35,078 nucleotides of DNA, from assembly GCA_021159185.1 (NCBI GenBank), contig JAGGSH010000037.1, forward strand, positions 1 to 35,078. Direction: 5' to 3'. This stretch comes from a bacterium. Lineage in GTDB: Bacteria; Patescibacteriota; Minisyncoccia; Moranbacterales; UBA9337. The notes beneath the pieces are model-generated. The model did not search any database. It worked only from the letters and a program-made list of their open reading frames with translations, and was not told where the DNA came from. Positions 21,999-25,816 of this stretch are shown here, piece after piece. Numbering within the stretch: the stretch's first letter is position 1; every line of letters begins with the position of its first letter. A program made the position numbers and the translations under genes.

Positions 21999-22057
21999 AC
22001 TAAAAAATTTATATACCACTACGGTGCGATCGCAATCTAGTGGTATATAATTTTTGT
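21999..22057. repeat. 59-bp palindromic repeat, copy 1
   Basis: TTTATATACCACTA pairs with TAGTGGTATATAA around the centre CGGTGCGATCGCAATC. Nearly identical to copy 2 at 22142-22199: one A is missing and the centre GCGATCGC is changed to GCGGTCGC in copy 2. Both copies have the same orientation. Confidence 0.8.
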
Positions 22058-22141: not shown

Positions 22142-22199
22142 ACTAAAAATTTATATACCACTACGGTGCGGTCGCAATCTAGTGGTATATAATTTTTGT
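22142..22199. repeat. 58-bp palindromic repeat, copy 2
   Basis: Same sequence as copy 1 apart from one deletion and one A-to-G change. The copies are separated by 84 bp of AT-rich sequence without a gene. TATATAAT in each arm could act as a -10 box. Confidence 0.8.
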
Positions 22200-23477: not shown

Positions 23478-23614
23478 GACAAAAAATAAAAAACAATAAA
23501 CTTAAAAAATGATAAAGCCCTAAATTTTATTTACAATTTGCGGATACGCAATATCGCGTCAATTAAGAGTAAAATTAGGCTTTGGATAATGTATCGCGCC
23601 GTAAAATTACAAGA

Positions 23615-23648
23615 GGGACTTCTTTATACGACCGTGTGAAGATGTTCC
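23615..23648. repeat. 34-bp ACGAYCGT palindrome, copy 1 (downstream of the PaaX-like gene)
   Basis: GGGACTTCTTTATACGA then CCGTGTGAAGATGTTCC: imperfect arms around ACGACCGT. Copies 2 and 3 are at 24317-24350 and 24449-24482. Confidence 0.75.
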
Positions 23649-23708
23649 TTTTGCTGTTCTTGTTTCTACGGCCATCTTCCATAATTTTCTCTTCAAACAG
23701 CGCGAAGA

Positions 23709-24254
23709 TCATAGTTTAAACCTTCTTCTAAGAAATCTGTCATTGCTAATCATTGCCGCTTCCACTAGATGAATATATCGCGCCATACCGAAAAAATCAA
23801 CCAAATGCTGAATTTCCCGCGCGCATTTATAGGGATATACCCACACCGAATGCTGCAATTCGTAAAATCCCAGCCGTTTAATATAAAAGCGGAATATGTC
23901 GCGCGCGGCGCGATTTTTTTCCGGCACGTCAAAAATTACCATTCGCCACTTTTCGTCCCACCGGCGCGGTTTTTTAATTTTAAGAAAATCAAGGCTGTGC
24001 CGCTCCGCTATTCTTTTCCCTTTTTTCGTCAAGAGAACGCGCATTGTTCCATCATTATTTTTTCTCATTTTAACCGCGCCGTGATCGCGCAATAATGTTA
24101 TTGATCTTTTAAATTGTTTCTTGTTAATATTTTTCCAATCCCTTTTCGCCGCGCGGATAATATAAGAACTTTGCCGCGGAGATCTGGAAAGCCCCAGCGC
24201 CAGCCCTGTTAAAAGAAGTACTAAAATCTTTTTTTGCACAACGCCAATATTCAT
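23709..24254 (-). CDS. PaaX-like regulator with Cas2-like C-terminal domain
   Basis: 181 residues. The N-terminal half (about 8-90) is a winged-helix-like DNA-binding region. The C-terminal half (about 100-170; WRMVIFDVPEKNR, YELQHSVWVYP, LVDFFG) is the ferredoxin-fold domain shared by PaaX repressors and Cas2, with D109 at the Cas2 metal position. Genes of this kind are common in Patescibacteria and are often labelled Cas2, but there is no CRISPR array or other cas gene here, so a transcription role is more likely. An upstream TTG at 24266 also opens the frame; ATG 24254 is preferred. Three matching 34-bp palindromes flank the gene. Confidence 0.82.
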   Translation of the reverse strand: MNIGVVQKKILVLLLTGLALGLSRSPRQSSYIIRAAKRDWKNINKKQFKRSITLLRDHGAVKMRKNNDGTMRVLLTKKGKRIAERHSLDFLKIKKPRRWDEKWRMVIFDVPEKNRAARDIFRFYIKRLGFYELQHSVWVYPYKCAREIQHLVDFFGMARYIHLVEAAMISNDRFLRRRFKL

Positions 24255-24316
24255 TAGTATTTTCAAGAAATTAAAAAAATTAACTGTTCCCAGCTTAACA
24301 CATTATCCGCAATCAA

Positions 24317-24350
24317 GGAACATGTCCGCACGATCGTGTAAAGAAGTTCC
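24317..24350. repeat. 34-bp ACGATCGT palindrome, copy 2 (upstream of the PaaX-like gene)
   Basis: GGAACATGTCCGCACGA then TCGTGTAAAGAAGTTCC, extended by AA..TT outside. It lies 63-96 bp upstream of the PaaX-like start, a usual operator distance. Confidence 0.78.
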
Positions 24351-24362
24351 TTAATTCACTTT

Positions 24363-24575
24363 CTATTTATAATTTTTATTTACATTCAAAATAAAAAATA
24401 AAATCACTAAAAATAAAACCATTAAGAAATAAAGAAAAACAACCATAAGGAACATCTTTATACGATCGTAAGAAGAAGTGCTTTTGATAAAATATCCCAT
24501 AAAAATAATTCCAATAGCGCCGCTTATGCTTACTTTGCCGTAAAATTTGCCTGCTAAACTGGCAGGTGATAACAA
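24363..24575 (-). CDS. Possible small membrane protein (doubtful)
   Basis: 70 residues from a TTG at 24575, only 5 bp after the GT4 gene stop. It has two hydrophobic segments (about 15-31 and 41-64). No family recognised. The first codons fall in CCTGCCAGTTTAGCAGG, a palindrome-like element, and the middle is coded by the third 34-bp palindrome. No Shine-Dalgarno is evident. It may be a real operon partner or a fortuitous frame. Confidence 0.3.
   Translation of the reverse strand: MLSPASLAGKFYGKVSISGAIGIIFMGYFIKSTSSYDRIKMFLMVVFLYFLMVLFLVILFFILNVNKNYK
24449..24482. repeat. 34-bp ACGATCGT palindrome, copy 3
   Basis: GGAACATCTTTATACGA then TCGTAAGAAGAAGTGCT. It lies 132 bp from copy 2, within the doubtful 24363-24575 frame. 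Confidence 0.75.
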
Positions 24576-24580
24576 TGTCT

Positions 24581-25816
24581 TTAATTTCTATATCTTGCCA
24601 ATGATTTATAAACCTCCAGCATTTTATCGGCGCAGACCGCGTCCGTATATTTTGCCCGGGCGATTCTTTTGGAATTTCCGGCGAATTTTTTTCTTAAATC
24701 TTTATCCGCCGCTAATTTATTCACCGCTTCCGCGAATTCGTTTTTATCATTTTCAACCAAAAAGCCATTAATACCTTCTTCCACTAAATCCTTGGCGCCG
24801 GGCGCCCTCACCGCCACAATCGGCAATCCGCTATACATTGCCTCGCTGATTACCATTCCCTGCGTTTCCGACAATGAAGCGTAAACGAAAATATCGGCGG
24901 CGGCGTAATAATTTTTAATTTCTTTTTTTCCAACCAGCCCGGCAAAAATAATCCGAGTTTTGTCAGCCTGAGGCTGGTCCGCCTTGAATGAAAGCTTCGC
25001 CTGCCCCATAAGCTTGTCCTTTAGAGAACTTTGCCAGCCCGAGGCTGGTTCGCCTTGGGCGAAAGCTTTGAGCTTTTTTAACAGATAGCCTTCTCCCGCC
25101 ACTAAAAATTTTACCCGATTGTTTGATTTTAATATCTTAATAACCGATTCAAATAAAAACTCCGCGTTTTTTTCTTCCGTCAGCCGCGAGACTAAAAGCA
25201 ATAATATTTCATCGCTTCTTATCCCATATTTTTTTCTGATTTTATCCCCGTCCGGATTTTGATAAACATCCTCATCAACACCTGTCGGAATAACCGCAAT
25301 GTTTTTGTTTTCCACACCCCAATTTTGGATTATTTTTTTAACGGATTTCGTGGGCGCGACTACTTGGCCGGCTTTATTGGCATAGCGGACGGCTTTTCTG
25401 ATTATCCAGCGCGCGGCCAATTTGTCGGGAATAAACGGAACAAAATTCGTGTATCTATCATAAAGCGTGTGCCAAGTGAAAACCAGCGGAATGTTTTTCC
25501 GCCGCGCCCATTTCAGCGCCGCCCTTCCCAAAAGATTGGGATGCTGGGAATGGATAATATCCAGATCAAGATTCTTTAATACTTGGCTGATTTTTTTGGA
25601 ATGAGCAATCGGCAAGGGAAAACTGATTTTATACTTTAAATCCATAGAAGGATAGCGAAACACTCTGGAATTTTTGTCGGTATATCCTTTTGAAAAAGGG
25701 GCAAAAATGTAAACTTGATGGCCTCTTTTTTCAAACTGCCGGCGAAAACTTTCTATGGATCCCGCCACCCCGTATGGATTAGGCAGATAATTATTGGTGA
25801 AAATGGCAATTCGCAT
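24581..25816 (-). CDS. GT4-family glycosyltransferase with in-frame palindrome insertion
   Basis: 411 residues from ATG 25816 (MRIAIFTNNYLPNPYGVAGSIESFRRQFEKRG). Upstream frame to 25843 is rejected because the family starts at this strand. It is a GT-B fold: the acceptor domain with HSQHPNLLG and FTWHTLYDRY, and the donor domain with VSRLTEEKN and the E..G..ISEA pattern (ETQGMVISEAMYSGLPIVA). The family makes lipid-linked or cell-surface glycans. Residues about 248-285 (between LLKKLKAF and TRIIFAGLVG) are an extra segment coded by two copies of a GC palindrome; other members have a loop of about ten residues there. Confidence 0.9.
   Translation of the reverse strand: MRIAIFTNNYLPNPYGVAGSIESFRRQFEKRGHQVYIFAPFSKGYTDKNSRVFRYPSMDLKYKISFPLPIAHSKKISQVLKNLDLDIIHSQHPNLLGRAALKWARRKNIPLVFTWHTLYDRYTNFVPFIPDKLAARWIIRKAVRYANKAGQVVAPTKSVKKIIQNWGVENKNIAVIPTGVDEDVYQNPDGDKIRKKYGIRSDEILLLLVSRLTEEKNAEFLFESVIKILKSNNRVKFLVAGEGYLLKKLKAFAQGEPASGWQSSLKDKLMGQAKLSFKADQPQADKTRIIFAGLVGKKEIKNYYAAADIFVYASLSETQGMVISEAMYSGLPIVAVRAPGAKDLVEEGINGFLVENDKNEFAEAVNKLAADKDLRKKFAGNSKRIARAKYTDAVCADKMLEVYKSLARYRN
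24964..25068 (-). repeat. Two copies of a CAGCCTGAGGCTGG-CCGCCTT element inside the GT4 gene
   Basis: Copy 24964-24997 and copy 25035-25068 each consist of CAGCC(T/C)GAGGCTGGT, CGCCTT and AAAGCTT. The core CAGCC..GGCTG matches the second inner hairpin at 17778-17790. The reading frame is preserved across both. Confidence 0.7.

Follow-up and report, generated by a model that had tools for sequence, protein, structure and literature searches.

The described arrangement that comes closest to the locus analysed here is that of REP sequences and RAYT genes. In the published account (PMC2817692), RAYT genes are always flanked by two inverted REPs and co-evolve with them, REPs are scattered in the genome with an abundance usually above 100 copies per genome, and orthologous RAYT genes keep their place while the REPs change yet stay palindromic; a GTAG tag is known for REPs from a further report (PMC3733652). 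The present locus, a PaaX_M gene with a set of short palindromes, lies in a window of 35,078 bp, which is the whole of contig C11 from a genome of 936,727 bp in 42 contigs (G000). Here too the gene is bracketed by two cognate palindromes, this being the case for 80 of 105 loci compared to 7 of 230 control genes, and here too cognate copies are dispersed in intergenic DNA (43 sites in G000, 28 of which are of a resident gene's type). The palindromes also co-vary with the protein (r 0.33, 0 of 2000 permutations; core class, 0 of 200), and at orthologous positions they change their arms yet stay palindromic, as REPs do (PMC2817692). In contrast to REP/RAYT, the partner is a winged-helix/Cas2-fold protein of the PaaX_M family and not a Y1 (HUH) transposase of family PF01797, the unit is a 36-bp near-perfect palindrome with an (A/G)CGNNCG(T/C) core and no GTAG tag noticed, and the copies number tens (57 places in G000) rather than the hundreds typical of REPs. 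Since the defining transposase is absent, the system would work like REP/RAYT but is not a member of it. We found no published description of a PaaX/Cas2-fold palindrome system in the open-licence papers searched, and we know of no established role for the PaaX_M genes of Patescibacteria.

On the side of the protein, the PaaX repressor (TIGR02277; E. coli structure 8a39) shares with the window protein a winged helix, a Cas2-like PaaX_M domain and the WDxKW motif. The E. coli PaaX site, TGATTC(N27)GAATCA, spans 39 bp (PMC9493321), and hence a palindrome of 36 bp lies within reach of such a dimer. Unlike the repressor, the window protein scores 30.2 bits, far below the TIGR02277 equivalog cut-off of 264.55, ends, when aligned with E. 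coli PaaX, after the Cas2-like domain and thus without the C-terminal (phenylacetyl-CoA-binding) region, and has an Asp113 and a Gln138 that the E. coli protein does not; its neighbours are not paa genes, and E. coli paaX is without such palindromes, none having been found in the 9001 and 3101 bases searched as a control. CRISPR Cas2 (TIGR01573) is alike in its ferredoxin-like fold with the motif FDIPE...R...LQxSVF, and against the NCBIfam cas2 model (cut-off 24.5) the window protein scores 24.1, with two of five members tested lying above the cut-off (28.3 and 25.8). It differs from the present system in that the latter has an extra winged helix and dispersed single palindromes rather than a repeat-spacer array, whilst the palindrome-bearing genomes show no association with Cas1. 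IS200/IS605 and its single-gene relatives consist of a single small gene between hairpin-forming ends, and one small gene between palindromic ends is also found here; however, there is no Y1 match, and each locus has its own diverged gene and ends instead of identical gene-plus-ends copies.

The window gene and its palindromes

The mechanical open reading frame of the window gene extends to a TTG at 24266, whilst the orthologue in another locus (L016) indicates that the ATG at 24254 is the likely true start. Its flanking genes encode a methylpurine-DNA glycosylase and a glycosyltransferase; an imperfect 39-nt direct repeat (85%) lies within the latter, at 24959-24997 and 25030-25068. The protein matches Pfam PaaX_M with 84.3 bits (cut-off 24; 6.4e-24), and its AlphaFold model (pLDDT 88.2, pTM 0.60) exhibits a helical/winged part at the N-terminus and a ferredoxin-like domain at the C-terminus. 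A fold search with the model matched the C-terminal domain to E. coli PaaX (Z 9.7, 82 residues, 2.8 Å) and to many Cas2 chains, the latter at Z 8-9 over about residues 104-185, whilst a PDB sequence search with the protein gave no relative and PHROGs only weak matches. Seven residues, G83, W103, D104, D113, R122, Q138 and S140, are invariant in all 69 sequences compared, and D113 would, judging from the motif, be the equivalent of the metal-binding Asp of Cas2. Several members of the family with a long N-terminus have palindrome cores GCAATTGC or GCATATGC.

Table 1. Features of the window at and near the PaaX_M gene
Feature	Position	Strand	Description and source
PaaX_M gene	23709..24254	-	181-aa winged-helix + Cas2-fold protein; ORF list, Pfam, AlphaFold model
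Palindrome 1, downstream bracket	23614-23651	.	centre ACGACCGT; repeat + inverted-pair search
Palindrome 2, inner upstream bracket	24316-24353	.	centre ACGATCGT; repeat + inverted-pair search
Palindrome 3, outer upstream bracket	24448-24485	.	centre ACGATCGT; repeat + inverted-pair search
Dispersed palindrome, other arm type	22012-22047	.	agrees with the C6 paralogue's palindromes at 32/36
Dispersed palindrome, close copy of the preceding one	22154-22189	.	C6 type, 33/36

The first-pass annotation of this DNA had described three 34-bp palindromes with the centre ACGA(T/C)CGT, one after the gene and two before it, that occur nowhere else in the window. The three elements are present with this centre and in this arrangement (Table 1), their length being about 36-38 bp and best described as 36 bp: the arm match rate is 0.70 at position 18 and drops towards background beyond about 42 bp. 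They form one 38-nt direct-repeat family (71-79% identity to the reference copy) and were also detected as inverted pairs with complementarity of up to 84%. The absence of further copies from the window holds for palindromes with the same arms, but two palindromes of the same architecture and with other arms are found there (Table 1, last two entries). Beyond the window, a pattern search of G000 gave 7 matches compared to 0 with the reversed control pattern, and copies of the window type lie at C1:26932, C5:36217 and C6:8617/8683, among others. Known RNA families were rejected as an identity of these elements, as no Rfam family reached its gathering score between 21800 and 24700 and only two sub-threshold chance matches were returned.

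Bracketing across paralogues, loci and genomes

G000 encodes five PaaX_M genes, each adjoining its own near-identical palindrome set. Four of them are bracketed on both sides and the fifth (C21) is cut upstream by the contig end; the C9 paralogue has two copies of CATCATTTAGAAACGATCGTTTCTAAATGATG, one per side, and there are three copies at the C6 gene, two at C2, four at C21 (downstream) and three at the window gene. The arms agree within a locus and differ among paralogues, all of which share the core. In a sister species (G001), the orthologue of the window gene (64% identity) has the same methylpurine-DNA glycosylase neighbour and four palindrome copies.

A first set of 105 loci was assembled from 25 family loci and 80 of 423 relatives from named genomes, mostly Parcubacteria, Moranbacteria and related lineages; one record named Micavibrio sp. 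(L065, DYDB01000001.1) bears a Patescibacteria-type PaaX locus and is probably a misnamed bin. A matching palindrome pair was present in 81 of the 105 loci (77 after duplicate removal). Pair counts, the within-locus similarity and the half-site statistics lean towards the result, the pairs having been chosen partly by palindromy and similarity; this bias is smaller in the control-gene, co-occurrence, permutation and shuffled-partner tests. With one palindrome upstream and one downstream in 73 of the 77 pairs, the elements are found after the gene as often as before it. A first pair test, positive for 51 of 105 loci and for 0 of 59 shifted controls, was too strict, missing the L016 locus with its four copies. 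The final test again comprised 105 loci, namely the family and named loci without duplicates or short flanks and 12 loci of the order that lay outside the training of covariance model R1. Here, the 80 bracketed loci, which include that of the window, paired matching palindromes across the gene better than 99.9% of 2,100 shuffles, and 78 did so better than all of them; three of the seven passing control genes, taken from the same loci, lie within 350 bp of the PaaX gene. Among the loci new to R1, 9 of 12 passed. The proposal that the palindromes belong to the gene family, to be judged from the flanks of homologues, was thus borne out by this bracketing and by palindrome sequences that track the protein. 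Among the 25 loci below the null, some may fail because a start codon or contig end cuts the flank (L088, L074), others have no convincing pair (L040, L072, L079, L084, L094, L100, L101 and L104, for example), and L125 and L126 fail yet bear matching asymmetric repeats. At L125 (G021 C1), three copies of the asymmetric relative CACTCTTCCACGGCCGACGTTGAGTGAGTG lie around one PaaX_M gene, with the same asymmetry in all.

The R1 model, built from 59 palindromes of gene-linked loci, was applied to 110 genomes of the order, 50 of them with PaaX_M genes, and to 286 of the phylum, 90 of them with such genes, the copy number per genome being 0 to 11. In the order, 43 of 50 genomes with PaaX_M had palindromes, compared to 7 of 60 without it (p 7e-16), so that genomes lacking the gene mostly lack the palindromes too; in the phylum, with at most 24 candidates scored per genome, they were found in at least 47 of 90 genomes with the gene and at least 8 of 196 without it (p 1e-20). 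The gene is present without a palindrome at threshold in 7 of 50 genomes of the order and, among the at most 24 candidates scored per genome, in 43 of 90 of the phylum, where this scoring lowers the sensitivity and misses are hence not absences. A viral origin was rejected: of 24 candidate stretches from a viral scan, 1 was a relative, and this was without a palindrome match.

Dispersed copies and their change over time

As to whether the element always sits beside this gene family, as had been asked when it was first described, 14 of the 57 sites listed for G000 do adjoin the five PaaX_M genes and 43 lie elsewhere. Many copies without a link to the gene had been named as the mark of a plain mobile repeat; copies elsewhere are indeed many, but 28 of the 43 are of a resident gene's type (at least 26/36), with 10 of the C6 type, 7 of C21, 6 of C9, 5 of C11 and 0 of C2. 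The remaining 15 are orphans matched by no resident gene. G000 sites in L161, L168, L171, L172, L155 and L157 have the orphan arms CA(C/T)TTAT..ATAAGTG, which none of the five genes fits. Three of the 57 sites overlap a predicted open reading frame and another three are found where a contig ends; the remaining 51 comprise 32 co-directional, 13 convergent and 6 divergent sites, close to the background of intergenic bases (14,848 : 4,513 : 3,284 in the same order). There is hence no promoter preference, and the sites are not placed like operators.

Exact copies were found in several genomes. The upstream bracket ATATACAAATTGTGACGATCGTCACAATTTGTATAT of a locus in G352 recurs letter-perfect at three unrelated places (C4, C6, C38), and G089, G109 and G325 each have a bracket with one identical 36-bp solo copy, in G109 up to the orientation of the core. 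In G085, one 36-mer occurs in four copies that differ at most in orientation and in a fifth with 1 mismatch, all with unrelated flanks; these copies (L175, L176, L177, L178, L184) have no cognate PaaX_M gene in the assembly, and their partner may have been lost, be absent from the bin or belong to another family. The palindrome extends past 36 bp by at least 5 extra pairs in 21 of 285 sites, where about 1.7 would be expected. Such extensions are site-specific and reach up to 12 extra pairs (L237, L238, L244, L245, L009 and others), and could stem from insertion into hairpins or from fold-back copying.

G001 is a genus mate of G000, with mostly about 60-90% identity between the proteins encoded beside the sites. 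At this distance of the nearest relative, no insertion event was seen, nor any empty site or target duplication. At least 8 dispersed positions beside orthologous genes hold a palindrome in both genomes, often with different arms, both of which have changed together: site L162 in G000 reads TCTACCATTAAGTCACGATCGTGAGCTAGTGGTATA and its G001 counterpart L196 GGTACCATTTTGTTGCGACCGCAACAAAATGGTACC, the latter form being the type of the resident G001 gene (L212). For one site pair of G001 (L198), the window lacks a palindrome counterpart at the orthologous position. Just upstream of murA there are two copies of the window type in G000 and one in G001 (L211). A window-type palindrome also lies in frame within miaA in both genomes (L158:1518-1553, G000 C5; L209:1501-1536, G001 C31), in a variable loop whose length exceeds that seen in some solved MiaA structures; it is possibly an old in-gene insertion that has been kept.

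The consensus half-site reads, from the centre outwards, (T/C)CG(T/C), seven variable AT-rich positions and then TG. The co-variation of half-site and protein distances (Mantel test) was obtained over 74 loci, with 8 duplicates and three loci with unlikely cores (L093, L102, L112) left out, and the core class clusters on the protein tree with 28 changes compared to 35.1 when shuffled. Of 206 non-palindromic pairs, 62 are common to both bracket copies of the same locus, compared to 12.3 (maximum 24) with shuffled partners. This level of shared asymmetric pairs, five times that of the shuffled set, points to copying and not to independent selection.

Possible roles of the protein and rival explanations

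We favour, with moderate confidence, a REP/RAYT-like system with a different partner protein as the explanation for these findings: the palindromes appear to behave as a copied, intergenic, REP-like population whose copying would be driven by the protein. The PaaX_M protein likely binds the palindrome as a homodimer, probably with a winged helix on each half-site and the conserved core covered by the Cas2-like dimer; at the upstream copies, such binding would also make the protein a repressor of the gene that encodes it. With less certainty, the protein may assist in placing exact copies of 36-bp palindromes at further intergenic positions and in converting resident palindromes to its own type, in which case the gene and its brackets would be the master unit within a population of repeats that turns over slowly; such a copying step is suggested by the exact copies and the shared asymmetries. 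The candidate for a catalytic residue is Asp113, conserved within the Cas2-type motif FDIPE. More tentatively, the Cas2-fold protein may itself be the copier, and the REP/RAYT arrangement would then have been invented twice and independently; here, a winged-helix/Cas2 dimer with the conserved Asp would nick or otherwise process the 36-bp palindrome and copy it, arms included, into intergenic places and over resident sites. Were the copying true, it would represent a new enzyme class for short palindromic repeats and possibly a side branch in the history of Cas2, and a copier of this kind would be widespread in Patescibacteria and account for their solitary "Cas2" or "PaaX" genes, which have no obvious function in CRISPR or with phenylacetate; binding alone would still provide the target of a phylum-wide regulator family. 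As every gene indicates which DNA it would target, binding, specificity and cleavage can be tested for many protein-site pairs together.

The first-pass annotation had instead pictured a regulator with its own operators. The binding part of this claim is likely to stand, but copies that lie equally after the gene, are dispersed and show no promoter preference do not suit operators, and a private set belonging to one regulator was rejected on account of the five paralogues and of the dispersed and downstream copies. The main rival is a plain, dedicated DNA-binding protein, either an autoregulator or a nucleoid organiser, whose dispersed sites evolve slowly by point mutation under selection and without copying. 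PaaX is after all a known repressor family with an E. coli site of 39 bp (PMC9493321), the upstream copies of the window lie at an operator-like distance, those at murA are placed just upstream of the gene, and the stability of the dispersed positions conserved between G000 and G001 also suits a fixed binding site. We nevertheless consider this rival rather unlikely, as exact 36-bp copies with unrelated flanks and asymmetries common to several copies are hard to obtain by point selection on operators, and as the sites are equally present downstream of the gene and have no preference for promoters.

Compared to the copying system that we favour, the remaining alternatives carry little weight. 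It is improbable that these are ordinary REP-like repeats moved by a Y1/RAYT transposase, Cas1 or an insertion sequence, with the PaaX gene as passenger or binder: whilst 57 of the 110 order genomes have Y1 transposases, which are weakly associated with palindromes (p 0.02), the palindrome-rich G000 and G001 are without a PF01797 Y1 match, on which ground RAYT/Y1 was rejected as the mover, 22 of 27 genomes with Y1 and without PaaX_M have no palindromes, and 16 of 20 with PaaX_M and without Y1 have them. G000 does have a Cas1 gene (C5:41897-42670), but Cas1 is found in 13 of the 110 genomes, 42 of 50 palindrome genomes have no Cas1 match, and a link at the level of genomes was rejected for lack of association (p 0.25); moreover, the brackets follow the PaaX_M gene. 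Incidentally palindromic RNA-level elements, either terminators or mRNA-stabilising hairpins, would agree with the ability of palindromes to form hairpins and with the many sites downstream of genes. This reading is nonetheless very improbable, given that the flanks inspected contain no consistent T-run, that conservation is highest in the core, the would-be loop of the hairpin, and that the sites track a DNA-binding protein and not gene 3' ends. Chance matches in AT-rich intergenic DNA, for which the AT-rich flanks speak and nothing more, have next to no probability and are already refuted by the shuffle and control-gene nulls, by the shifted controls (0 of 59 against 51 of 105 loci) and by the identical perfect 36-mers.
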